From a virus: a DNA stretch of 25,549 bases. Shown piece by piece: positions 1,488 to 22,426 of this stretch. The translations under genes were made by a program, and so were the position numbers. The DNA is taken from positions 1 through 25,549 of the IMG/VR virus record IMGVR_UViG_3300002917_000009; one strand, 5' to 3'. Positions within the stretch are counted from its first letter, which is position 1. Each line of letters begins with the position of its first letter. Under the pieces are notes generated by a model. It saw only the letters and a list, made by a program, of their open reading frames with translations, was not told the origin of the DNA and did no database searches.

Positions 1488-3089
1488 TTAGAAACTGTCC
1501 GGCTCATCATCTTCCACTTCACAATCCATTAGGATTGGAAATGAAATTGGGATCGGAGTAGTTAATCCCCAAACGAACTCCAAGATAAAATTATTTGAAC
1601 CGGTAACATCAAAAGCTAAACCTGGCATTTTCATAATAATTTTTCTCCGGCCGCCATAAGTCGCGTTATTGATTACCGGCAAAGACGCGATTGTATGGGA
1701 AGCGTCATCGTTATATAAAGTTGTAGTAATTTGGGTATTGGCATCCACGAGTCCGGCTAAAGGAATCCTTAATTTCATGATCCTAAATTTTCTGCCGATA
1801 TTAAACATAAAACGGAGTGTTGAGCCTAGAGTCGCCGAAGATGAATATTTATCCAATCCGTTCGCCGGTGTACCATCATGCCAACCGACGACCATTTTCG
1901 GGGCGACGTTTGAAGATTGCTGGGCGAATTTTAAAGCCGTCACAATTTGACTAACACCTGAAGTAGAAGGAGTCATAACCGCATGGATAGGCACTGGTTC
2001 CTGGGAGAGTCGGACATTTTTAGAGTTAAATCCAAAAACCACGCTTGAAGCTACAGGGTAAGTTATCCAACTACCCCAAACAACCCGATTACCTTTAGCG
2101 TCAATTGCTCCAGGAAAAGGCGAGTAACCTTCTTCTTGGTAAACAATTTCATGCAAAGAATCGCCGCCGACATAATGAGAAATTCTCATACCACTTTGAG
2201 CGTTACCAGAAAAAACCAGCAACTTGCCATTGACATCGTCGATCGCCGTGGCAAATGGATCAGCTAAGGGAATATTGCGGTAGAAACCAGAAGTATTAGT
2301 CGTATCCCACAAAATCAACCAACCATTGCCTTGATTAACTACGGTATCGGTCGATTGAAAACCGACAATAGCTAAATCATTAATATTGTAATTGACTAGA
2401 TCCATGGGGTAATAACCAAAAGGCAAAGCCAAAACTTGGTAAGCTGAACCGCTGTTGGTATCGCCTTCATTAGTAACCCGAGTGGTTTTGATCTTATTTA
2501 AATACCCTTGGCCATTTTTAAAGTCACAAAAGTATAAGGCGTTATCGCCTGGATTATATTGAGCCCAATGATTAGGCAAAGCCACCCCGCGAAAAGATGG
2601 GTAAGTCGTATTAGTTAAGGCTGTCTGAGTTCCCAAAGTCGCCCCTGTCCACACGGTATCAGTCAACGCAGGAACGCCGTCTAAAGGGCCATAACGGGAA
2701 ACATCAGTGCCAGTGGAAGTACCTAGTAGATAAATATAATTATTATAGTAAGCAGCTCCCGAGCAAGTTCCACCCGCCGCAGGGGCAATTAAGGTTTCCA
2801 CACCCAAAGCTGAATTATAAGAAATCAACCGTCCGTTATTTAAAACAACATAAGTCAAGGTATTTTTCGGATTGGTGATGATGTTGATTATCGGAGCATT
2901 GACGTTGACTCCGGAGAATTTGGAATAACCGATAGGGACGGCTAAACCGGAAGTTCTAATATCAGTAGAACTGATTGGGAAGTCCGGATCTATCGCAAGA
3001 GACGAATTGTATGTCCCTTTCATATTGAAATACATCGCAGGACTCCATCCATTTAATATCGAGTCGATTCTTAATTTTAGGATTGCCAT
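1488..3089 (-). CDS. Beta-propeller-like tail hub / stopper protein
   Basis: 533 residues. The body is a series of short beta segments ending in aromatic and Gly residues (LTYVVLNNGRLISYNS, YYNNYIYLLGTSTG, GKLLVFSGNAQSG, GNRVVWGSW), the pattern of a beta-propeller. The last ~140 residues look like a beta-sandwich. It lies between the adaptor gene (3582) and the beta-helix tailspike. In P22-like podoviruses this slot holds the gp10 hub, a propeller of about 470 residues that closes the portal-adaptor channel. The assignment rests on order and fold pattern, not on a recognised motif. Its ATG overlaps the stop of the HNH gene upstream (TAATG), so translation is probably coupled. It shares the MAIL- start with the 8046 gene. 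It could instead be a receptor-binding propeller. Confidence 0.65.
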   Translation of the reverse strand: MAILKLRIDSILNGWSPAMYFNMKGTYNSSLAIDPDFPISSTDIRTSGLAVPIGYSKFSGVNVNAPIINIITNPKNTLTYVVLNNGRLISYNSALGVETLIAPAAGGTCSGAAYYNNYIYLLGTSTGTDVSRYGPLDGVPALTDTVWTGATLGTQTALTNTTYPSFRGVALPNHWAQYNPGDNALYFCDFKNGQGYLNKIKTTRVTNEGDTNSGSAYQVLALPFGYYPMDLVNYNINDLAIVGFQSTDTVVNQGNGWLILWDTTNTSGFYRNIPLADPFATAIDDVNGKLLVFSGNAQSGMRISHYVGGDSLHEIVYQEEGYSPFPGAIDAKGNRVVWGSWITYPVASSVVFGFNSKNVRLSQEPVPIHAVMTPSTSGVSQIVTALKFAQQSSNVAPKMVVGWHDGTPANGLDKYSSSATLGSTLRFMFNIGRKFRIMKLRIPLAGLVDANTQITTTLYNDDASHTIASLPVINNATYGGRRKIIMKMPGLAFDVTGSNNFILEFVWGLTTPIPISFPILMDCEVEDDEPDSF

Positions 3090-3577
3090 TAGATTTTATT
3101 TAAATAAGCAAATTGACCAAAAAATTGTTTGGCGGCTTGATTGTAAGCAAGAGCGGCTTGATTTTCATTATCATAGCTTCCTAAGTTCCTTGTTTTATGA
3201 TTTATACAGATTTGAGCAATCCACTTCTTATTATTAGGAAATTTTGTTACACCCTTAAATTTGGATAAACTATTCTTATGAGGCTTACTATTAAAAAGAT
3301 TTTGTTTTTTATAGCATAATCGTAAGTTACTTAGGACATTATTTAATCCATTTCCATCTATATGGTCTACTTCCTTATTCTTAGGAGCTTCCATAATCAA
3401 ACGATGCATATAGATTTTATTCGATTTTCCTTTAGAACCCTTAATCCATTGGGTTCGTTGAGCATATAAATTTCCATGTTTATCTGTATGGCAAAACCAT
3501 TTCCATTGACTCAGGAAATCAAAATTTTCATCATCTACAATGGTTTTTTTATTTTGAGTTAATTCAATATATTTCAT
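3089..3577 (-). CDS. HNH-AP2 homing endonuclease
   Basis: 162 residues. The N-terminal part is MKYIELTQ followed by a Trp-rich segment (QWKWFC). A central HNH-3 type nuclease has HRLIM, then VDHIDGNGLNN and NLRLC. The C-terminal AP2 DNA-binding domain runs from about residue 108, with SKFKGV, a W.AQI core, LGSYDNENQAALAYNQAA and a final YLN. These proteins cut unoccupied alleles and spread by repair; they serve no virion function. It is a paralogue of the gene at 19490, with the same start and domain order. It sits exactly between the adaptor and hub genes, joined by TAATG to the hub, so it is a free-standing insertion that leaves both neighbours intact. More AT-rich than the structural genes around it. 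Confidence 0.9.
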   Translation of the reverse strand: MKYIELTQNKKTIVDDENFDFLSQWKWFCHTDKHGNLYAQRTQWIKGSKGKSNKIYMHRLIMEAPKNKEVDHIDGNGLNNVLSNLRLCYKKQNLFNSKPHKNSLSKFKGVTKFPNNKKWIAQICINHKTRNLGSYDNENQAALAYNQAAKQFFGQFAYLNKI

Positions 3578-6180: not shown

Positions 6181-7284
6181 TTAATAGTTTATCGTTCCTA
6201 AATGATTCTGAAGTATTTTCATCTGGTCTGCTTCGATAGCCGGAACAAGAGGAGAATTGGGTTGAGCTGTAGAAACTGCCGAATACCATTGCCCTGTAGC
6301 CCAATGAGTACCGGCGATGTTGTAAGCATCCATGACGTTCATAAAGTCACTGAGAGCAGACAGATAAGCTTCATCTGTAGTTGGGATAGTTCCCCCTATA
6401 TATATATTATTATTCGGTACTCCATATTCACCGAGGAACAATGCTGGGTAACCCCCGACGGTTAAGCCCCTATTATTGACCCAGGTGGCTACAGTAATTA
6501 GGAAATCCCCGCCTGCTTGAATACCAAGTCCTGAGCCGGCAAAACCAGCGTTAGCTCCAGCGTAGGTTCCAGAATGGTCGGAATCAAAATAGTAATGCCA
6601 GGAATAGTAAAGTTTATTGGCAACACTGTCAGTAAACCAGGGAGTGGGGTTAGCTCCGTAGTCACCTACGAAATTCTGTAGTCCTGACCAGTTATCAGTC
6701 TCAGCAACGATATAATGTCCAGTGTCAACGGCCCGGATTGCGACTATTGCCGCATTAGCCGCCAATGTCCATGTTGCCGTAGTGTTATAAGTTGCAGGCG
6801 TCGTCTGGACGGGCATGGCGTTTGGTTCATTCATTAAGTCATAGCCCCAAACATTTGCATTACCCACATAACGAGTAGCGACTTTAGTCCACAAGTCTGT
6901 AAAATTTGCTTGAGTCAGTTGAGCTGAGCCAATCTTACGATTAACGCCTGATACATCCCTACCACCAAAGTTATGACATTCTAAAAGGACTTTAAGTGAG
7001 GCTCCTGACGCCCACGTGTTGATAATGGTGTCGAGATACCCCATGTAGGTTGCATCTAACGCTCCCCCAACAGTGGGTTGAGCACGCTCCCATAGGAAGG
7101 GGACTCTGACTATATTGAATCCCTTGTTTCTGACGTAATTGAAATCCTGCTGAGTGTTCTTCGTGTAATTGGTCCCTTCTACTCCTGGTAACGTAGCAGG
7201 AGCCATCTCGAGACCTGACATGTTGAGACCTCTGGGAACAGGGGCTTTTGATGGACCGATTTGTCTACGTAATGTTCTTGCCAT
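6181..7284 (-). CDS. GH5-type glycanase (cellulase-like) virion protein
   Basis: 367 residues; the barrel fills nearly the whole protein. Clan GH-A / family 5 marks are in order: RGLNMSGLE at 18-26, FNIVRVPFLWER at 56-67 with the conserved Arg, CHNFGG with His104, YDLMNEPNA with the acid/base Glu153 of the NEP motif, SWHYY with His230, FLGEYG with the nucleophile Glu286, and HWATGQW near 327-333. GH5 enzymes hydrolyse beta-1,4 glucans, mannans or related polymers with retention of configuration. No signal peptide is seen. The start MARTL matches the LamG protein next to it, and the stop/start gaps are only a few bases, so it probably belongs to the virion as a depolymerase. Substrate cannot be read from sequence. 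Confidence 0.88.
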   Translation of the reverse strand: MARTLRRQIGPSKAPVPRGLNMSGLEMAPATLPGVEGTNYTKNTQQDFNYVRNKGFNIVRVPFLWERAQPTVGGALDATYMGYLDTIINTWASGASLKVLLECHNFGGRDVSGVNRKIGSAQLTQANFTDLWTKVATRYVGNANVWGYDLMNEPNAMPVQTTPATYNTTATWTLAANAAIVAIRAVDTGHYIVAETDNWSGLQNFVGDYGANPTPWFTDSVANKLYYSWHYYFDSDHSGTYAGANAGFAGSGLGIQAGGDFLITVATWVNNRGLTVGGYPALFLGEYGVPNNNIYIGGTIPTTDEAYLSALSDFMNVMDAYNIAGTHWATGQWYSAVSTAQPNSPLVPAIEADQMKILQNHLGTINY

Positions 7285-7288
7285 AAAA

Positions 7289-8023
7289 TTAAGCTAAAGT
7301 GCGAGTTCCTGCGACTGTGCGAGCAGGGATGTTGGTAATCCAAACAGTTCCGGTTATGAAAGTGACAGTACCTTGTATAGTGCCCGTATTTCCCGCAACA
7401 GAAGAATCGACTACGGTAGTTGCGCCAGTTGTCTCATCAAACTTATACCAAAGAACTAAATTAGAGGTACTTGGATTGTTTTGTGGATTATTTCCGTAAA
7501 TCTGTAAAAGTTCAGCGGTTGATAAAGCACGGGTATAAATTCTGGCATCATCGATGTACCCATTAAATACGTTTGTATATGTATTGCTTGTAGTGTTATG
7601 AGTACAGCCAACAGTAGTATCGACTTGAGGGGAGTTGAAAGTTCCTGTAATAACAGCACCTTCAGCAACGCCATTTAAATACATTTGCGTGTTGGTACCT
7701 GTGCGAATGAATGCGACGTGATACCACGTCAGGGTTGATAGTACTGTGGTGCCTGATCCTCCCCAGACACCGCCAGGATCATTTACTTCTAATTGTGAAG
7801 ATGCATTAAGAACAAAATTCCAGCCACCATTACCGTTTCCGGTTTGGCCATTCTTTATTAACGTTACCTTTCCTGAAGGTACTACGCTAATATAAATCCA
7901 AGCTGAAGCCGTGTAATCTCCAGTATTACCGTCAGCGACAATGCTCCGTTGAATACCATTACCATTGCTTCCATTAAATACAGCGGCATTGCCTCTAACT
8001 TGTGCAACTAAAGTTCTAGCCAT
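7289..8023 (-). CDS. LamG / concanavalin-like lectin-fold virion protein
   Basis: 244 residues. Residues about 10-170 are a LamG (ConA-like jelly roll) domain: AVFNGSNGNGIQ, YTASAWIYI, WYHVAFIRTGTNTQMYLNG, GYIDDARIYTRALSTAELLQIYG. After it, residues about 183-215 read NLVLWYKFDETTG...VVDSSVAGNTGTIQG, which is the motif that normally opens a LamG domain. The order is therefore permuted, or a second domain is truncated. LamG domains bind glycans. The protein shares MARTL at its N-terminus with the GH5 gene that follows 4 nt later, suggesting a common attachment peptide. The leader lacks a Shine-Dalgarno. A binding partner to the glycanase downstream is the simplest reading. Confidence 0.82.
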   Translation of the reverse strand: MARTLVAQVRGNAAVFNGSNGNGIQRSIVADGNTGDYTASAWIYISVVPSGKVTLIKNGQTGNGNGGWNFVLNASSQLEVNDPGGVWGGSGTTVLSTLTWYHVAFIRTGTNTQMYLNGVAEGAVITGTFNSPQVDTTVGCTHNTTSNTYTNVFNGYIDDARIYTRALSTAELLQIYGNNPQNNPSTSNLVLWYKFDETTGATTVVDSSVAGNTGTIQGTVTFITGTVWITNIPARTVAGTRTLA

Positions 8024-8463: not shown

Positions 8464-9060
8464 TTATGTGTAAACTAAATTAATATTTTTATTTGCGAAT
8501 GTGTCTGTTTGTTTGTGACAATCAAGACAGAGTGAAAGTCCATTAGATAACTCAAATCTTAATTCAGGAGAATAGGCAAACTGTTTAATGTGGTGAGCGT
8601 TTAGAGTTCCGCCCTTTTGTCCACATTCCTGACAAGTATAATCGTCCCGTTCAAAAACTGTCCTACGCCAATTTTTATACTCAAATGAGTTTCTAATTAA
8701 GGCATTGATTGAAGAAATTCCGCCCTTCCAGAAAGGACTCTTATCCCCCTTTTTAGATTCGCTTAGATGCCTTCGTTGTTCTATAGTTAAACTATATTTA
8801 TTTCCTTTTGCTCTTTGGTTTCCTACTAAACTTTGACTTATTTTAAGCCGTGTTTCTAAGGGATATTTTTTACCAGTATTGATTTGAATTAATTTTTCTT
8901 TTGTTTTTTCGCTGTGTTTTTTATTAAAGAAAGGGTTTCTACTACCACTATATTTTTCAGCCCGTTCTTGTTTTTTTTCATCAGTCCAAAATTTAAGACA
9001 ACTTATTCTGGCTTTTCTTTTTGATTCTTCAGATTTAGGTTTACCTTTTGGGTAAGACAT
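8464..9060 (-). CDS. HNH homing endonuclease with NUMOD3 repeats
   Basis: 198 residues. The N-terminal half carries NUMOD3-like DNA-binding repeats, short Gly-Lys motifs each followed by a basic helix: YPKGKPKSEESKRKA, NPFFNKKHSEKTKEKL, NTGKKYPLETRLKISQSL and a further one ending in FWKGG. The C-terminal HNH nuclease has WRRTVFERDDYTCQECG, LNAHHIKQFAYSPELRF, NGLSLCLDCHKQT; the two CxxC pairs hold a structural zinc, and the His-His pair belongs to the active site. It lies between two structural genes with 3-4 nt on each side, so it is free-standing and breaks nothing. Domain order differs from the HNH-AP2 genes, so it arrived independently. Confidence 0.92.
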   Translation of the reverse strand: MSYPKGKPKSEESKRKARISCLKFWTDEKKQERAEKYSGSRNPFFNKKHSEKTKEKLIQINTGKKYPLETRLKISQSLVGNQRAKGNKYSLTIEQRRHLSESKKGDKSPFWKGGISSINALIRNSFEYKNWRRTVFERDDYTCQECGQKGGTLNAHHIKQFAYSPELRFELSNGLSLCLDCHKQTDTFANKNINLVYT

Positions 9061-10144: not shown

Positions 10145-10663
10145 TTAATCTTTACTGAAGTTTAATGTGAAACAGAATTGACATTTAGGACACTTAACTT
10201 CGGAACTATGTTTACTTGAATGCCATTTTCGTTCAGTAAGTTCTAAGTTTTCTGGTCTATTATCGCTTCTATTTCCGTTTTTGTGATGGACAATTTCATT
10301 AGAAGTAAGACTTCTGTTTAAAATTTGTGACATTACCAAACGGTGTTCAAAAATATATCCGCTTTTTCCGCTCATTGGATTATCTGGCATCCAAAGATGA
10401 ACATATCCTTGATTTTTACGTCTTTTAGAAAAATAGCTTTTAGGTTTACCTTTATGGGCAAGACCTATTTTTTTAAGAACTTCAAGCGAATTATGATGCC
10501 CTTTCACGAAACGTGATGGTCTTAACTCTATTCCATATAAATGAAGGCAGTCAGTTACTGTTTTAGTACTTCGCTTTAATTCATAAGCAATTTTTCTAAT
10601 TGATTTCCTTTTTTCACAATATTCTTCTTTTAAAGAACTTTCTTGGATAGGATTGCTTATCAT
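10145..10663 (-). CDS. HNH endonuclease with N-terminal helix-turn-helix
   Basis: 172 residues. Residues 8-50 resemble a helix-turn-helix ([20 protein letters not shown], then [15 protein letters not shown]). The nuclease core follows: [46 protein letters not shown], the HNH-3 layout with His-His and Asn. The C-terminus has a Cys pair (VKCPKCQF) that could bind zinc. It stands alone between the gene starting at 11437 and the leader of the 10029 gene, breaking neither. Its start codon lies within the 39-bp palindrome at 10657-10695, which suggests its own control. A third HNH type in this window. Confidence 0.88.
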
Positions 10664-14845: not shown

Positions 14846-16732
14846 TTAGATATTAGGTGTATGAGATGTCATGGGTGAAATGGAGGGCGTTGGGGCTCCG
14901 GCTGGCAATCCTTGTGGCATTGGCGGCATTCCTGACGGTCCAGTGGGCGGTTGGCCTGGAGGGGGAGCTTCTTGAGGCAATTGGCCAGGTGATCCGCCTT
15001 GTTCTGGGTGCTGTTGTCCTTGAGGTTGTCCTTGTCCGCCTTGCCCTTGCATTTCAGGGAACAAAGACATAGGATTGGTTTTCCAAAGCAGTAAGTTCAT
15101 CGCCATTTCTTTGGGGTTTGGATAGTCCAGGTAAGAATAAAGAGTAATCGGGTCCATTAATCCGGCGGAAGCCAGTTCTTGGGCTTGTTTAGCTTGGCTC
15201 ATCTCGTCTTTAGGAATTAAGGAACCTTCTTTGACTGAAACAGTGACTTTTCTATCTAACTGGGCGTTAGACAGGCTGACGTATTCAAAAGCTTTAGCTT
15301 GGCCGACTACAGCACCGTCATGTGCCGTATCCCAATAAACGTAAATCATCTGGGTCATCCAATTGAAAATCCGATCGGCAAACTGTTCTAAGGTATCAGA
15401 GATTTCCCCGCCAATACGGATAGAATCAGCTTGCGAGAGCATAGCCATGCCGCGGACGGTCTTTTGTCCTGCTAGGCCCCCAGCTCCAAAGCCTCTGGTG
15501 CCAAAGATGTTCTTTAGTTCATTTCTAGCATCGGATAAGTGTTCAAAAACCTGGGCTGGTAGTGGTTCGCCGTGAGTTTGGATAAACGCCCGTCTGACAT
15601 CCCCTGGTACGCCGATTGCGCCGCCTTTTCTAAGAGCTGTAGAAGCTTGTTTGGCTTGTTCAGTCGTTAAGTTATCAAGCGAGAAGACCATGCCGCCGTT
15701 CATATTATCGGCGTTTTTATCAATCTGGCGATAACGCTTGTTAACCAAATCCTGTAAAGGTAAGTTTTGTTCAATCAATGAAGTGTCATCAAACGGCTTT
15801 GTTCCTAAGTTAAAGATTGACAAAGGAATATATGGCATCTTAGGAACCTTGAAATGGTTGCGTGGCGGAATCGAATTGGTCTGTTGCTGGCCGAATTGAT
15901 CGGTTGTTTGAGTATCTTTGGCTTCATACCGGAAATGAGGATTCTTAATCTTGCCCAAGATCTCGTTGTCCATCTCCCAGCAAACATACTCATCTGTCCA
16001 CCATTCGATGTATCGAAGCAACGTCCCGCCCATCTTATCGGTTTGCTGGTCAATATACGCCGATTTCTTCGGGAAACGTTTCTTTAAATCCGAAGCCTTA
16101 TCTTGCCTATACTCGCCGATAAATTCTCCGTCATACCAAAGGGTTTCATCAATCGTTCCGTCGGGGTCCAAAATCAATTTCTGGGGCCTAACGACCTGCA
16201 AGATCATTTCATCCTCAACCATGCTCCAAGAAATTTTTATCATTCCCAAATGATATATCGCCCAATGTCTGGCTGCTCGCTTAAGTTTTAAGCGCAAGGC
16301 CAGCTTGTCTGCCAAATAAATCAGCATCTTCTTGGTCGTAGACGCAATTTTCCGGCCTTCTTCCGAATCATCTGTCGCAACTGACGGTTCGGGATTCTGC
16401 TTAGTCGCCACAGGCAGGGCTTCTTCTAAACTGTTAAAGATCAAATTGTCGACTAAGGGGCGGGAGCCTTCATCTTCCGATTGTTTGCCTAACCAATACC
16501 TTTCGTTCTCTTTTTGCTTCTTTTCCAATTCACCCTTCAACGGACTATTAAACCATTTAGCTTTCCATTTGGCTGTTAAAGAACGTAGTTCCTCATCATC
16601 CATACTTAAAGCTAGCTCAGGGATTGGATCACCAACAACGCCTTCGCCTTGTTCCATCCCTTTACCCTTGATCTTGTTTAAATCTTTCGAAAGCGAGAAG
16701 AATCCCGCTAATCTACTGGTGATATCTGCCAA
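14846..16732 (-). CDS. Portal protein, TTG start
   Basis: 628 residues from TTG at 16732, the only start-type codon before the upstream in-frame TAA; AAGGA 9 nt ahead supports it. The body fits a phage portal: LTAKWKAKWFNSPLKGEL, KQNPEPSVATDDSEEGRKIA, RHWAIYHLGMIKISW, KMPYIPLSIFNLGTKPFDDT, LPLQDLVNKRYRQIDKNADN and FADRIFNWMTQMIYVYW. The last ~80 residues are a disordered Gln/Pro/Gly tail. The dodecameric portal seeds capsid assembly, is the terminase docking site and later the DNA exit. It is the first gene of the operon after the promoter/terminator region. Longer than the ~500 of many portals and shorter than P22 gp1 (725). Confidence 0.85.
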   Translation of the reverse strand: MADITSRLAGFFSLSKDLNKIKGKGMEQGEGVVGDPIPELALSMDDEELRSLTAKWKAKWFNSPLKGELEKKQKENERYWLGKQSEDEGSRPLVDNLIFNSLEEALPVATKQNPEPSVATDDSEEGRKIASTTKKMLIYLADKLALRLKLKRAARHWAIYHLGMIKISWSMVEDEMILQVVRPQKLILDPDGTIDETLWYDGEFIGEYRQDKASDLKKRFPKKSAYIDQQTDKMGGTLLRYIEWWTDEYVCWEMDNEILGKIKNPHFRYEAKDTQTTDQFGQQQTNSIPPRNHFKVPKMPYIPLSIFNLGTKPFDDTSLIEQNLPLQDLVNKRYRQIDKNADNMNGGMVFSLDNLTTEQAKQASTALRKGGAIGVPGDVRRAFIQTHGEPLPAQVFEHLSDARNELKNIFGTRGFGAGGLAGQKTVRGMAMLSQADSIRIGGEISDTLEQFADRIFNWMTQMIYVYWDTAHDGAVVGQAKAFEYVSLSNAQLDRKVTVSVKEGSLIPKDEMSQAKQAQELASAGLMDPITLYSYLDYPNPKEMAMNLLLWKTNPMSLFPEMQGQGGQGQPQGQQHPEQGGSPGQLPQEAPPPGQPPTGPSGMPPMPQGLPAGAPTPSISPMTSHTPNI

Positions 16733-16747
16733 ATATTTATGTCCTTA

Positions 16748-16766
16748 AACCCGCTCTTCACGGGTT
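16748..16766 (-). promoter_or_regulatory. Hairpin before portal ribosome site
   Basis: Minus strand AACCCG-TGAAGAG-CGGGTT, 6 pairs with a 7-nt loop, ending 1 nt before AAGGA and about 15 nt before the TTG start. It has the hairpin-then-ribosome-site layout of the two composite leaders but not the 16-mer. Confidence 0.45.
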
Positions 16767-16792
16767 GCCTTCCATAAGTGGAAAAAGGGTTA

Positions 16793-16832
16793 AAAGACAA
16801 AAAGAGCCACGGCCCAATAGGGCTGTAGCTCT
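16793..16832 (-). terminator. Intrinsic terminator in late leader
   Basis: Minus strand AGAGCTACAGCCC-TATT-GGGCCGTGGCTCT, a 13-bp stem with one A-C mismatch and one G-U pair, followed by TTTTTGTCTTTT. A textbook Rho-independent terminator. It lies about 40 nt after the likely transcription start and before the portal gene, so it would stop the late transcript unless overridden. A smaller stem GGAGA-ACA-TCTCC stands just ahead of it. Confidence 0.85.
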
Positions 16833-16875
16833 GGAGATGTTCTCCTCAAGCAACTTATACACAAAACTTAATTAG

Positions 16876-16904
16876 ATTATATTCTTAAAAACTTATTTTG
16901 TCAA
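16876..16904 (-). promoter_or_regulatory. Perfect sigma-70 consensus promoter for the late operon
   Basis: Minus strand TTGACA at 16904-16899, 17-nt spacer, TATAAT at 16881-16876. Both hexamers and the spacing are exact consensus. The -35 box overlaps the last codons of the 16893 gene. Transcription should begin near 16869 and run toward the portal gene, meeting the terminator at 16832-16793. Host RNA polymerase would read it unaided. Confidence 0.85.
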
Positions 16905-17114
16905 ATGCAAACCGATAATAATCTGCTGCATCGGGTTAGTCAGCTTCACCGGCAAGCCGTCTTGAATAGTTAAAGTCACTGATCCATAGTCTAATTTCTT
17001 AGAAAACTCAATAACTTCCAACCAGTTCTTATGCCAAGTATCAAAATCCTGCTGCCATAACCGGAAACGTTTAAAATGTTCGGCCTCTTGGTCAGAGAGT
17101 TCTATCGTGGTCAT
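16893..17114 (-). CDS. Small phage protein after large terminase, unknown
   Basis: 73 residues, MTTIELSDQEAEHFKRFRLW onward, with a helical N-terminal half and a C-terminal beta part (LDYGSVTLTIQDGLPVKLTN). The ATG at 17114 overlaps the terminase TGA (ATGA). A longer frame to 17126 begins with ATT and is not needed. Small proteins of this style with an MTTI-L-EEAE-F start are common in phages and have no known role. Its 3' end holds the -35 box of the late promoter. Confidence 0.68.
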   Translation of the reverse strand: MTTIELSDQEAEHFKRFRLWQQDFDTWHKNWLEVIEFSKKLDYGSVTLTIQDGLPVKLTNPMQQIIIGLHLTK

Positions 17115-18712
17115 ACGCGCCTCCAATCGTCGGTATCCTCGTACTTAAAAAAGGTCTTTGGATTAAATTCTACGGTCTCTGTCGGGTTTAAAGCATAACT
17201 TTGCGGAATCTTGATCGTATCCGTGTTGACTATTTTCATTGATCCGCCAAATCTCGTCCAACCCACACGGGCAATAACAGTAGCCAAAGCCTTATGATCC
17301 CGCCCTGATCTGATCCATTTAAAACCTTTAAACTCGCCGGTATTGTTATCAAGCTCTTTAATTCTGGTTAGGTTATTCCAGTCCAACCAGTAGTCATACC
17401 AATCATTTTCCGTGCCTTGCAAGGATATCCGGCCCTTACTAAACTCGCTAACGACTAACTGAATATACTTATTCCGATCAATCCCAACGATGTTTTCATC
17501 CTCATTCCATACCGGCTCATCAGAGTTTGCTTTGGCTCCGCCTAAATTAACAAGAAAAACCCGACCTCGCCAGCGGTTCTGAAAGTCCCTCGATCCGATT
17601 AAATCCCCGCCAATATCCACAAATGCGATCATCTTTTTCCAGCGTTTCATTAACGCATCCAACTCGTCGTATTTCTCCGCTTCGCCATTAAAGAATAAAC
17701 CCTTTTCACCCCAAATGACATAATCCAATTTTAATCCGGTATCAACGCCTAAGATAACGCGTTCCGTAACTTCCGATGTGATAATCTCAGTCGTTAGATT
17801 TTTCATCAAATTGACTTTAGTCAGCTTGTTATCCGTGCCGACATAGGGTAATCCTAAAACCTTATTATAAAAATACTCTTCGGATTTGTTGTTAAAGTAA
17901 CCGATTATCTCTTTCGCTGATACCCAAGGACAAATTAAAAGCGGTATCCAGTAGCCGGAAAACTCACGGCCAGGGTATTTAGCTACCCATTTGCCTTTGC
18001 GCCTCGTTTCGTCCGTAAGTTCTTTGTGACACTTCGTACATTGGAAGCATGAGCGAGTGGTATCCACGCTATTTGGCCACTGAATAAATTGCCATTCATT
18101 ACAAGCTGAACATCTAATAAACCAGTGTTTTTGATCGCTTCTTTGCCAATATTTGTCCACCCCTGACCCTTCAGCACTTGGATGCGAGAAATACCACTCC
18201 CACTTATATGGAGAATGTTGTAACCGAGTGCTATATTGCTCAATAACTCGTTGATTAGAGGCGTCGACTTCGTCATAAATGTTTAAGTCTGATGAGACCA
18301 TGATCGCAGCTTTTTCCGACCATGTTCCTTTAAAATGTATAAAATGTTCGCCTATTTGCTTTTGCTCAATTGTATCCTTATCTCTAGTGTACTCCTGTAA
18401 AACCGGATTCTGTTGGATGATTGGATTGACCTTTGATCCGACCATCTTTTGAATATCATCTTCTGTGGGTAACAGGTAGATCGTATTCAGTCCCAGCTTC
18501 TTAACTACGAAAAATGATTTGATGATATGACAGGTCGTGGCCGTGATTTGTGCCGCTTTCATAATCACTTGTTTCGGTCTGAAATCTCGGTAGACATCGA
18601 ACATAAACGGATGATCTTTAAAATCCAATGATATGCCGGATTCTGTCTTTATCTGGTATTCCTGAATCCAGGCGTGGATCGAAATATCTTCAAGTCTTGG
18701 TAGATTTGACAT
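17111..18712 (-). CDS. Terminase large subunit, gpA-type
   Basis: 533 residues, ATPase plus nuclease that packages DNA into the procapsid through the portal. ATPase: FRPKQVIMKAAQITATTCHI at 44-63 holds a variant Walker A (Gln-Ile-Thr-Ala-Thr-Thr, without the classic GxGKT). LNIYDEVDAS at 143-152 is Walker B with the catalytic Glu. EWYFSHPSAEGSG at 172-184 fits the coupling motif. A zinc ribbon, RCSACNEW and CFQCTKCHKE (Cys201/204/225/228), is characteristic of the lambda gpA family. Nuclease acids are probably Asp324 (LGVDTG) and Asp366 (AFVDIGGD). gpA-type terminases usually give cos ends or related packaging. It follows the small subunit by 20 nt. Confidence 0.92.
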   Translation of the reverse strand: MSNLPRLEDISIHAWIQEYQIKTESGISLDFKDHPFMFDVYRDFRPKQVIMKAAQITATTCHIIKSFFVVKKLGLNTIYLLPTEDDIQKMVGSKVNPIIQQNPVLQEYTRDKDTIEQKQIGEHFIHFKGTWSEKAAIMVSSDLNIYDEVDASNQRVIEQYSTRLQHSPYKWEWYFSHPSAEGSGVDKYWQRSDQKHWFIRCSACNEWQFIQWPNSVDTTRSCFQCTKCHKELTDETRRKGKWVAKYPGREFSGYWIPLLICPWVSAKEIIGYFNNKSEEYFYNKVLGLPYVGTDNKLTKVNLMKNLTTEIITSEVTERVILGVDTGLKLDYVIWGEKGLFFNGEAEKYDELDALMKRWKKMIAFVDIGGDLIGSRDFQNRWRGRVFLVNLGGAKANSDEPVWNEDENIVGIDRNKYIQLVVSEFSKGRISLQGTENDWYDYWLDWNNLTRIKELDNNTGEFKGFKWIRSGRDHKALATVIARVGWTRFGGSMKIVNTDTIKIPQSYALNPTETVEFNPKTFFKYEDTDDWRRV

Positions 18713-19363: not shown

Positions 19364-19490
19364 CTTTTAATACCTCTATTTTAATTAAATCAGCGACCAT
19401 TTCAATCGCTCGTTCCGGTTCTAAGGCCTGGATTTCGACTTGGCCGACTATTTCATCTTGTAGTTTAATTTGGACTTTATAACTGTTCAT
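19347..19490 (-). CDS. Small protein, unknown
   Basis: 47 residues, MNSYKVQIKLQDEIVGQVEI then QALEPERAIEMVADLIKIEV. A beta-beta-alpha pattern can be read. Its ATG overlaps the stop of the HNH-AP2 gene (TAATG), and its end overlaps the next gene. The overlap at the start supports it as real. No family recognised. Confidence 0.58.
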   Translation of the reverse strand: MNSYKVQIKLQDEIVGQVEIQALEPERAIEMVADLIKIEVLKDVDTK

Positions 19491-19954
19491 TATAGGTTAG
19501 TTAATGAATACTCACCAAATAATTCTTTTGCCTTTAAATCATAGGCTTTTGCCGCTTCTAATTCAGTTTTATGATAGGTACAAAATACCTTACCCTGTAA
19601 TTTACATTGCATTACCCAATATTTTAATGTTTTATTCCAGCAAACGCCTTTATAATCTGAAGTTAATTGTCTCTTTTGTTTATTTTGGTTCATGCCATTT
19701 TGAGATTTAGTTACAATTCTTAAATTCTCTCGACGATTATCAAGTTTGTTATGATTGATATGGTCAACGTTTAATCCTTTTGGGCAATTACTTATTATTC
19801 TATGTAAATAAATTGCCTTTTTAATTCTTTCTGAATAATCAAATCGCATTGCATAACCTAATCCCATACAATACCACTTGTGTTTATTAACCAATTCAAA
19901 ATCCACATCATCCACAATAGCTTGTTTACCTTGAGTTAATTCAATATATTTCAT
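19490..19954 (-). CDS. HNH-AP2 homing endonuclease (second copy)
   Basis: 154 residues starting at MKYIELTQ, the ATG that overlaps the stop of the 20325 gene; a five-codon longer frame is unlikely since the paralogue at 3089 starts at the same motif. Order as there: KHKWYC, HRIISNCPKGLNVDHINHNK, NLRIVTKSQN for the HNH-3 nuclease, then the AP2 domain SDYKGVCWNKTLKYWVMQCK, with AAKAYDLKAKELFGEYSLTN. The LG of the AP2 turn is replaced (FCTYHKTELE). Joined by TAATG on both sides, it lies among small genes upstream of the terminase. Confidence 0.9.
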   Translation of the reverse strand: MKYIELTQGKQAIVDDVDFELVNKHKWYCMGLGYAMRFDYSERIKKAIYLHRIISNCPKGLNVDHINHNKLDNRRENLRIVTKSQNGMNQNKQKRQLTSDYKGVCWNKTLKYWVMQCKLQGKVFCTYHKTELEAAKAYDLKAKELFGEYSLTNL

Positions 19955-20325
19955 TATCCAGCGTCCCATTGAGTCATACCATTTGACCCTTTAATTCGGT
20001 TATCTATGCGTAGTTCTGTTCTAGCACCAACTTTATGAATACAGAAATTTTTTCCATTACAACTATTCGATAAACAAATACGAATTACTGTTAACTGCGG
20101 ATGGTAAACTTTATGATAAACAGCTTTCGTCCGTCCGGTAGGTTGACAGGTTTCGGCAATGCAGACATTCAGGTAATCTAAATTGTCAATTCTACCTTTC
20201 GAGTCCTTGTTAAACTTGTGCTTATAACCGCATTTAACGCACTGCTTGTACTGGGCATTAACAAAGTCGGCAAGATTAGTCATGTCGTGTGGTAGATTAC
20301 TTTTACATTTGGCGTAATCAATCAT
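19954..20325 (-). CDS. Cys-rich zinc-binding-like protein, unknown
   Basis: 123 residues. Cys pairs: Lys-Gln-CVKCGYKHKF, then CIAETCQ, then ICLSNSCNGKNFCIH, a layout suggesting one or two zinc sites. The rest is basic (KAVYHKVYHPQLTVIRI). Its ATG overlaps the stop of the 20600 gene (ATGA), and its stop overlaps the HNH start. I recognise no family. A nucleic acid-binding role is plausible but not shown. Confidence 0.6.
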   Translation of the reverse strand: MIDYAKCKSNLPHDMTNLADFVNAQYKQCVKCGYKHKFNKDSKGRIDNLDYLNVCIAETCQPTGRTKAVYHKVYHPQLTVIRICLSNSCNGKNFCIHKVGARTELRIDNRIKGSNGMTQWDAG

Positions 20326-20604: not shown

Positions 20605-20889
20605 TTATTTTATCCATCCAAGTATCTCCTCATCTTCCAATAACACATATTCGGTTTCCTTATCTTTTTCCATGATTTTAAGCTTTTCCCCTGCATAACG
20701 ACCGTAAAAAACTATTTCATCTTTTTTATACTTATCTTTGAAATCCTCACCAACAGCTAATACTTTTCCTTGGGTTTTTTCCTCTCGATCAGAAGTATTG
20801 GGCATGATAATACCGGAAGCTGTTTTGTGCTGTTCAGTTTCGATTTGTTTAACAAGAACCCGCGATGAATTGGGAATTATTTTAAGCAT
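20605..20889 (-). CDS. groES: Co-chaperonin GroES
   Basis: 94 residues from the ATG at 20889, 1 nt after the GroEL stop. A longer frame to 20952 would overlap GroEL and adds 21 residues not seen in the family. GroES features in order: IIPNSSRVLVKQIETEQHKT at the start, then the mobile loop with ASGIIMPNT (family: GGIVL), GKVLAVGEDF, DEIVFYGRYAGEKLKI and a C-terminal EYVLLEDEEILGWI. GroES forms the heptameric lid of GroEL. Order here is GroEL then GroES, the reverse of the usual bacterial groES-groEL. Confidence 0.92.
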   Translation of the reverse strand: MLKIIPNSSRVLVKQIETEQHKTASGIIMPNTSDREEKTQGKVLAVGEDFKDKYKKDEIVFYGRYAGEKLKIMEKDKETEYVLLEDEEILGWIK

Positions 20890-20890
20890 A

Positions 20891-22426
20891 TTAGTAAGGC
20901 CTTGGAGCCATTTCAACGTACTGCTTCTCTTTGCAATCTGCCAAAATCCCACGGATTAAAATTAGTTCACACGCCATAGACACGGCGGATTCGATTTGAG
21001 CGATCAAAACTGCGGTCGGATCAACCACCCCAACCTTCAAGAAGTCGCCAATCTCGCCTGTAACGATGTTTAAAGCTTCGTCTTTTTTCAAATCAGGGGC
21101 AGAAACGTTACTATTTTCCAATAATTGCATATATGGAGCCATGAGGGCTTTGTTTAAAAGGTTGGATTTAGTTTTTAAACGCGCCAAGGATAGCCCGCCA
21201 CCGCAGACTATGCCCGATTCAGCCGCAACTTTCACGGCATTAGTTGCGTCTTCAACCTTGTAACGAAGAGCGTGCATCTCTTGTTCCGTCGGCGCGCCGA
21301 CTCGAATGACCGCAATACCGTTCATTAACCGACCATAACGTCTCTGTAATCTATCCAATTTATACCCTAAAGCGTTTTCCATTAAGACTTTAATCCCAGC
21401 GGCAACCTTATTGATTTCGCTTTTCTTGCCTTTACCGCCGATTATCAAGGTTGAATCGGCTTTGGAAACTATTTTATCGGCTTTACCCAGCATCTTGATG
21501 TCAAAATCCTCAATCCGGATGTCTTTTGACCTGGATAAGACCTGTCCGCCTGTAACCACAGCCAGGTCGTTTAAAAAGTCGTCCTTATCGTCATAACCAG
21601 GAACATTTACGGCAATTGGGTAGAAAACACCGCGTTGGCGATTAGCAAGTAACGTGGTTAAAGCGTCGCTTTCAATGGCTTCGGCAACAAATACGCACTG
21701 AGTCACACCTTCTTTCACCAGTTTTTCTAGGATCTGCACCATATCGATAGCCGTGGTCAGCCGGTAATCGGTAATAAAAATCTTGGCGTTACTGAACTCA
21801 GCTTCCATTCGTTCGGGATTGGTGACCATAAATGGGGCAACATAGCCTTTTTCAAATTCAAATCCGTCAACGTGTTCGTGGGTCGTTTCCATAGTCTGCG
21901 ATTCCTGGACCGCAATCACGCCTTCGTGACCGATCTTATGGACAAGTTCGGCGATGATCTTGGAAATCTGGGCATTATCAATCGAAATCTGGGCAACTTT
22001 CTGTAAATCTTCCAAAGTTTTGACCTTTTTAGAAGCTAGAATGAGCTTATCTTTGGCTTCAGCCGCGGCTTTTTTTAATTCTGAGACGACTAAACGAGGA
22101 TTAATCGCGCCCAAAGCGTCGACTTCATTCAAAATCGCCTGAAGCATGATTAACGAGCCCGTAGTGCCGTCGCCAACTCGATCATTAGTCTTAATCGCGA
22201 CCTGCTTAATTAACTCAATCACGGCGTTTTCGTGTTCATTTTCTAGGGTAAACTTCTTGGCAATTGCTACGCCGTCGTCCAAAGCTTGCGGTTTGGCCGC
22301 AAACTCGGGGGGTAGGATGACTTTAAAACCGGAGGGGCCGAACGTAACTTTGACGTAGTCGACTAAGGCGTTGACCGCGTTTTTAATGGTTTCTTTAACT
22401 TTGTCTTGTTCCAAGTGGTGGATCAT
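20891..22426 (-). CDS. groEL: Chaperonin GroEL, divergent phage type
   Basis: 511 residues, full length apart from the tail. Equatorial ATP site: VTFGPSGFKVIL at 27-38 (family GPKG), Asp51 in LDDGV, GDGTTG with Asp86 at 85-90, and VEDATNA with Asp393 near 391-397, then CGGGLSL. The apical domain runs about 190-370 (EFEKGYVAPFM, ITDYRLTTAIDMVQILEKLV, IAVNVPGYDDKDDFLNDLAV). All three key acidic residues are present, so it should be an active ATPase. The C-terminus ends MAPRPY with no GGM repeat, which in bacterial GroEL fills the cavity floor. GroES follows 1 nt later. Probably folds a phage protein; the capsid protein is the usual client in phages. Starts 2 nt after the upstream stop with no Shine-Dalgarno. 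Confidence 0.95.
   Translation of the reverse strand: MIHHLEQDKVKETIKNAVNALVDYVKVTFGPSGFKVILPPEFAAKPQALDDGVAIAKKFTLENEHENAVIELIKQVAIKTNDRVGDGTTGSLIMLQAILNEVDALGAINPRLVVSELKKAAAEAKDKLILASKKVKTLEDLQKVAQISIDNAQISKIIAELVHKIGHEGVIAVQESQTMETTHEHVDGFEFEKGYVAPFMVTNPERMEAEFSNAKIFITDYRLTTAIDMVQILEKLVKEGVTQCVFVAEAIESDALTTLLANRQRGVFYPIAVNVPGYDDKDDFLNDLAVVTGGQVLSRSKDIRIEDFDIKMLGKADKIVSKADSTLIIGGKGKKSEINKVAAGIKVLMENALGYKLDRLQRRYGRLMNGIAVIRVGAPTEQEMHALRYKVEDATNAVKVAAESGIVCGGGLSLARLKTKSNLLNKALMAPYMQLLENSNVSAPDLKKDEALNIVTGEIGDFLKVGVVDPTAVLIAQIESAVSMACELILIRGILADCKEKQYVEMAPRPY

Follow-up and report, generated by a model that had tools for sequence, protein, structure and literature searches.

A putative protein-dependent transcription attenuator ahead of the virion operon in phages that probably infect Patescibacteria

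Introduction

How are the virion genes of a phage expressed when the promoter that faces them is followed at once by a strong terminator? The question arises at the head of the portal-to-tail operon in a 25,549-nt stretch of viral DNA, here called the window. By computation on the window and its relatives we establish a consensus promoter, two mutually exclusive folds in its leader, the conservation and covariation of these folds, their association with a small upstream ORF, and the coevolution of this ORF with one of the hairpins; from these we infer protein–RNA binding, the direction of its effect and its timing. With a probability of about 0.74, the region is a protein-dependent transcription attenuator of the virion (portal-to-tail) operon, in which a DUF2292-like protein would clamp an antiterminator hairpin.

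Results

A promoter and two competing hairpins precede the portal gene

The locus lies between the genes for the terminase large subunit (terL) and the portal protein and comprises the following features.

17111..18712, minus strand: terminase large subunit gene (terL; PHROG 675), upstream of the DUF2292 ORF
16893..17126, minus strand: small ORF of 77 codons with DUF2292 (PF10055) at residues 38-61, the proposed RNA-binding antiterminator
16904-16899, minus strand: -35 box TTGACA, a sequence match within the last codons of the DUF2292 ORF
16881-16876, minus strand: -10 box TATAAT, with a 17-nt spacer to the -35 box
16851-16828, minus strand: antiterminator hairpin GCUU-ga-GGAGA-aca-UCUCC-a-GAGC, -10.4 kcal/mol, the putative protein-binding site
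16832-16803, minus strand: intrinsic terminator hairpin AGAGCUACAGCCC-UAUU-GGGCCGUGGCUCU, with a fold of about -21 kcal/mol
16799..16803, minus strand: terminator U-tract, 5 U followed by GUCUUUU in the sequence
16740..16799, minus strand: post-terminator 5' UTR fold UGUCUUUUAACCC...GGGUUUAAGGACA, from folding and sequence
14846..16732, minus strand: portal protein gene (PHROG 156), the first gene past the attenuator

The promoter, which the first-pass annotation had called a perfect consensus, is indeed the sole exact match to TTGACA-N17-TATAAT in the 25.5 kb, with 0.01 expected by chance, and its position would place the RNA start near 16869. The same annotation had described a 13-bp terminator ahead of the portal gene; a strong terminator with a U-run is present, but its stem consists of 12 pairs and one A.C mismatch rather than 13 perfect pairs. 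The 77-nt leader has a folding z of -3.3. Its antiterminator hairpin is built from an outer stem of 4 bp, a 2-nt 5' internal loop, an inner stem of 5 bp, an ACA loop and a 1-nt 3' internal loop, and the segment AGAGC (16832-16828) of the terminator 5' arm is common to both hairpins, which abut and compete (-21.4 kcal/mol for the terminator vs -10.4 kcal/mol for the antiterminator). The antiterminator hairpin and the DUF2292 ORF had both escaped the first-pass annotation. The leader thus contains two mutually exclusive, strand-sharing hairpins of which the downstream one is an intrinsic terminator, the arrangement expected of an attenuator. Of the 56 terminator-like sites that the window contains on its two strands, this one alone has the full antiterminator signature.

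Beyond the terminator, the 16740-16799 fold would cover the portal Shine-Dalgarno sequence AAGGA and could possibly add a second, translational layer of control. A structured 5' UTR of this kind, with a long closing stem near the portal start codon, is also seen past the terminator in L007, L008, L009, L017, L066, L077, L100 and L125 (locus labels used in this study).

The layout recurs in diverged relatives

The first-pass annotation had suggested looking for the region in relatives. Portal and terminase relatives were gathered from IMG/VR and genome assemblies, giving 94 distinct loci with both genes after de-duplication. The order of promoter, 5'-end hairpin, terminator and portal start is kept in most of these 94 loci while the sequences have diverged, and the layout is present in most relatives with room between terL and portal. 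Within the 43 element-bearing loci, the best promoter in the 75 nt upstream reaches a score of 10 or more in 72%; for background windows the figure is 1.2%. The hairpin starts a median of 14 nt past the -10 box, which places it near the RNA 5' end. The earlier proposal that a promoter–terminator unit gates the late genes by antitermination is therefore well supported, since the layout recurs across the phage family on diverged sequence.

The viruses among the relatives occur in metagenome-assembled genomes (MAGs) of Patescibacteria, Parcubacteria and Jorgensenbacteria, with one further match in a MAG labelled Ignavibacteriae. The hosts of the phage group are thus probably Patescibacteria, an assignment drawn from these relatives. 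The window phage is distantly related to a TM7 phage, and the annotated phage relatives, TM7 phage MG269973 and MW202566, have a short terL-portal gap or another ORF layout.

Several other features of these genomes were recorded by eye or in passing. The window carries HNH-endonuclease-like ORFs at 3089-3577, 8464-9060, 10145-10663 and 19490-19969, and terL is split by inserts in L001, L002, L024, L025, L027 and L030. The tail region of the window has a glycoside-hydrolase-like ORF (6181-7284) and a lectin/LamG-like ORF (7289-8023), whose products are possibly receptor-binding or cell-surface-degrading proteins. Phage GroEL and GroES are encoded at 20605-22426 in the window and also in L007, L008, L014-L017, L021 and L066.

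The antiterminator is a small element with covarying arms

Leaders were folded only up to the terminator 5' arm, i.e., without the terminator 3' arm. A recurrent topology emerged, in which an outer stem, a 5' internal loop of 2-3 nt (GA or UAA), an inner stem, an apical loop often holding ACA, and a 1-nt 3' internal loop follow one another, and in which the outer 3' strand lies consistently inside the terminator 5' arm. At a threshold of -4 kcal/mol or lower, 27 of 43 distinct leaders show a strict version of this topology, whereas dinucleotide shuffles do so in 3.5% of cases. Several of the remaining leaders were judged by eye to match, their inner stem having 2 bp or their apical loop carrying an insertion.

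Covariation scores exceed those of shuffled controls in both the 2-nt loop class (1.05 vs 0.32) and the 3-nt loop class (0.87 vs 0.33). For these alignments the apical loops were cut out to bring the arms into register. The elements had been detected and selected in part by their pairing, so the 100% of paired cells is partly by construction. Loop letters, which lay outside the search criteria, are nearly fixed: an A precedes the inner stem in 24 of 27 elements (53% of shuffles), and a 2-nt loop with 3' A or a 3-nt loop with 3' C is likewise present in 24 of 27 (33% of shuffles). In each of the 44 loci compared, the terminator fold is more stable than the antiterminator, so the default state should be OFF. 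Searches of Rfam at gathering and relaxed thresholds gave no convincing match to the element. In the leaders of L104, L033 and L144, a tandem pair of CUAACCACGGCG-type motifs stands ahead of the terminator, which suggests two binding sites.

A small DUF2292-like ORF accompanies the switch

The ORF directly upstream of the promoter starts with TTG at 17126 or ATG at 17114, and DUF2292 is its only above-cut-off Pfam match, at 27.2 bits against a cut-off of 22; the corresponding ORF of L020 scores 22.3 bits. A homologous small ORF occupies the same position in most relatives, where it mostly falls below the DUF2292 cut-off and is joined to the family by iterative profile search only; further ORF types were recognised by position together with the pattern V-x-I-x-I-x-x-G-x-I-V-x-x-E. 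Broad alignments of the small-ORF family are without conserved stretches, and profile scans made with them were unproductive. Searches of PDB, PHROGs and NCBIfam with the family gave no convincing match. The model of a type-2 protein, a helix with four strands, reaches a pLDDT of 88.6, and a fold search with it against PDB and BFVD returned no significant match; the model of the window protein itself is poorer (pLDDT 71.7).

Presence of the ORF and presence of the switch go together. In the 20 loci with terL-portal gaps below 100 nt, both the ORF and the terminator/switch are absent. Where the gap exceeds 100 nt, the antiterminator was detected automatically in 44 of 60 ORF-positive loci vs 2 of 14 ORF-negative loci (Fisher 7e-5, with relatedness among loci uncorrected). 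The two switch-bearing exceptions carry a frameshifted ORF (L067) or another ORF, of no assigned type (L027). The 16 ORF-positive loci in which automatic detection found no antiterminator speak against the proposed attenuator. Some of them (L055, L042, L033, L017, L010, L066 and L134) could be fitted on visual inspection, given an inner stem of only 2 bp, an insertion in the apical loop or a single-stem form; L049, L106 and L156 gave no clear fit. In six loci (L007, L008, L014-L016 and L066) groEL is inserted between ORF and switch, and both are still present. A scan based solely on the type-2 ORF returned ten loci, all within this phage group; nine were known, and the sole new one, L125, has the switch.

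The DUF2292 family also occurs in ordinary bacteria, for example as yezD in Bacillus subtilis. A search of 145 genomes drawn from the phylum to which a Patescibacteria MAG belongs gave two DUF2292 matches, one of which (L116, on an 819-kb Patescibacteria contig) stands directly behind a terminase gene in the host chromosome. This terminase-DUF2292 pair (3-1665) is likely a prophage remnant; the switch was not apparent there by eye, and a portal gene was not obvious.

ORF and hairpin sequences change together

Co-occurrence admits another account, namely that the antiterminator, although real, is recognised by some host factor or by a different phage protein, and that the DUF2292 ORF is a mere linked neighbour. 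The ORF overlaps the -35 box or promoter in many loci and is thereby physically coupled to it, so that some of the co-occurrence could be due to linkage; moreover, the literature searched yielded no function or biochemical data for DUF2292. If the protein reads the hairpin, ORF and hairpin sequences should change together. In a set of 35 loci from which near-duplicates had been removed, loci with more distant ORFs also have more distant hairpins when portal and terL distances are controlled for (partial Mantel r=0.41, p=0.0002). The distance between ORFs follows neither the remainder of the terminator (r=0.01) nor the spacer that separates promoter and hairpin (r=0.02). With the ORF controlled for, neither portal nor terL distance is a significant predictor of the hairpin, and the ORF-hairpin correlation is also seen when type 1 is analysed by itself (r=0.25, p=0.0095). 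ORF types also pair with hairpin classes, type 2 with GACCG..CGGA and type 4 with GAACAG..CUGUA; type 3 ORFs are accompanied, as judged by eye, by a single stem capped by a 10-11 nt loop, as in GGUUC-AAACCCACAA-GAACC of L017 and GCUC-AAACCUACAA-GAGC of L010. A merely linked ORF would not be expected to track the hairpin after control for both flanking genes when spacer and terminator do not, nor would distinct types 2 and 4 be expected to go with distinct hairpin classes, and a host factor would have no need of per-phage specificity. We consider the linked-neighbour account unlikely. Of the candidates that the first-pass annotation had offered for the antiterminator, the evidence thus favours one of the unknown small proteins, i.e., the DUF2292 protein encoded directly upstream.

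The shared strand points to local refolding

HK022 put RNA acts on RNA polymerase without a phage protein. Processive antitermination, as by lambda N/boxB, Q or HK022 put, would modify the polymerase so that it ignores this and later terminators. The locus resembles such systems in its late promoter and early terminator and in its small hairpin near the RNA 5' end, and a small regulator could ride on polymerase. Like lambda pR'-tR' with Q, the first-pass model for the locus, it has a promoter and then a terminator at short distance ahead of late genes; unlike it, control apparently resides in a strand-sharing RNA fold. Nothing Q-like was recognised among the part of the ORFs scanned in the window, itself a fragment, nor was a Q-type site. 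Like put, the other model named there, it would have a structured RNA at the phage transcript start overcome termination, yet here a dedicated ORF coevolves with the RNA, which argues against put. The outer stem consistently uses the terminator's own 5' arm, an arrangement that local refolding requires and processive systems do not, and although the window has dozens of terminator-like sites, the signature is found at a single one. The shared strand therefore points to local refolding rather than put- or Q-type modification of RNA polymerase, and a processive mechanism appears quite improbable.

A small-molecule riboswitch or a translation-coupled leader-peptide attenuator would match the overall two-state architecture of the leader; however, the element of only ~24 nt has neither a conserved long aptamer nor an Rfam match, and a hairpin beginning so soon after the -10 box leaves no space for a leader peptide in most relatives, making either very improbable. 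That an ordinary inter-operon terminator merely sits beside an independent strong promoter, or that the leader is a free sRNA, has next to no probability: both elements are abundant in phage genomes, as the terminator-like sites of the window illustrate, but the promoter precedes the terminator, rather than standing behind it, in tens of diverged relatives, and a competing hairpin shows covariation and fixed loop letters. The sRNA suggested at first pass is neither needed nor supported and was rejected, because leader sequences differ widely between relatives while the two-state fold is kept.

Discussion

BglG/LicT regulators combine a CAT RNA-binding domain with PRD domains, and their RAT target is a conserved sequence of ~29 nt; ANTAR sites are a two-hairpin motif, and ANTAR proteins carry an ANTAR domain. 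In a Pfam scan of the window ORF, in which DUF2292 alone was above cut-off, neither a CAT nor a PRD domain was found, and no antiterminator-family match was found among the part of the window's ORFs that was scanned, the window being a fragment. As in BglG/SacY/LicT-RAT (PMC3369936), a weak hairpin over the terminator 5' arm would be stabilised by an operon-encoded RNA-binding protein. The phage protein is, however, much smaller and without PTS domains, it would serve virion genes rather than sugar use, and its ~24-nt element has another consensus, without RAT-type sequence or Rfam match. The ANTAR antiterminators NasR, AmiR and EutV bind a leader hairpin and block terminator formation (PMC3369936, PMC8934654), as is proposed here, yet neither the two-hairpin motif nor the ANTAR domain is seen in the phage system.

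The slot itself offers a further parallel. In L180 and L101, a Mu Com-like zinc ribbon (PF10122) scoring above cut-off replaces the DUF2292 ORF between terL and portal, and weaker Com-like (PF10122) matches occupy the same slot in L173 and L062; all four phages have different structured leaders. Mu Com is a proven RNA binder (PMC6483171), and a regulator of a proven RNA-binding type in the same slot supports an RNA-binding role for DUF2292. Com, which acts on mom mRNA, is likewise a very small phage protein that binds RNA and activates a phage gene (PMC6483171); it differs in being a zinc ribbon that acts on translation, whereas the DUF2292-like protein is modelled as a helix with beta strands.

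In the mechanism that we propose, RNA polymerase would start at the consensus promoter, located where the DUF2292 ORF ends, and the weak antiterminator hairpin (16851-16828) would be the first stable structure in the nascent RNA. Unheld, this hairpin would give way to the terminator (16832-16803), with which it has the strand GAGC in common and which is ~10 kcal/mol stabler, and the RNA would end at a length of about 70-75 nt. Translated from the terS-terL-ORF transcript that originates upstream, the DUF2292-like protein would bind the internal-loop A, the inner stem and the ACA-containing loop of the antiterminator; the bound hairpin would then occupy the common strand and polymerase would read into portal and beyond, so that the virion operon would be switched on after the upstream genes have been expressed. 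The terminator may also catch read-through from upstream genes.

We lean towards the broader view that DUF2292 is a new RNA-binding antiterminator family and that, combined with a new RNA element, it serves an entire clade of Patescibacteria phages as their late-gene switch. With parts as tiny as ~24 nt of RNA and 50-80 aa of protein, and with dozens of natural pairs of apparently differing specificities, the switch is testable in vitro without culturing host or phage. If the reading is true, it would give DUF2292 its first function, that of an RNA-binding antiterminator, add an RNA element absent from Rfam, and reveal late-gene control in a phage group nearly all of whose hosts are uncultured.
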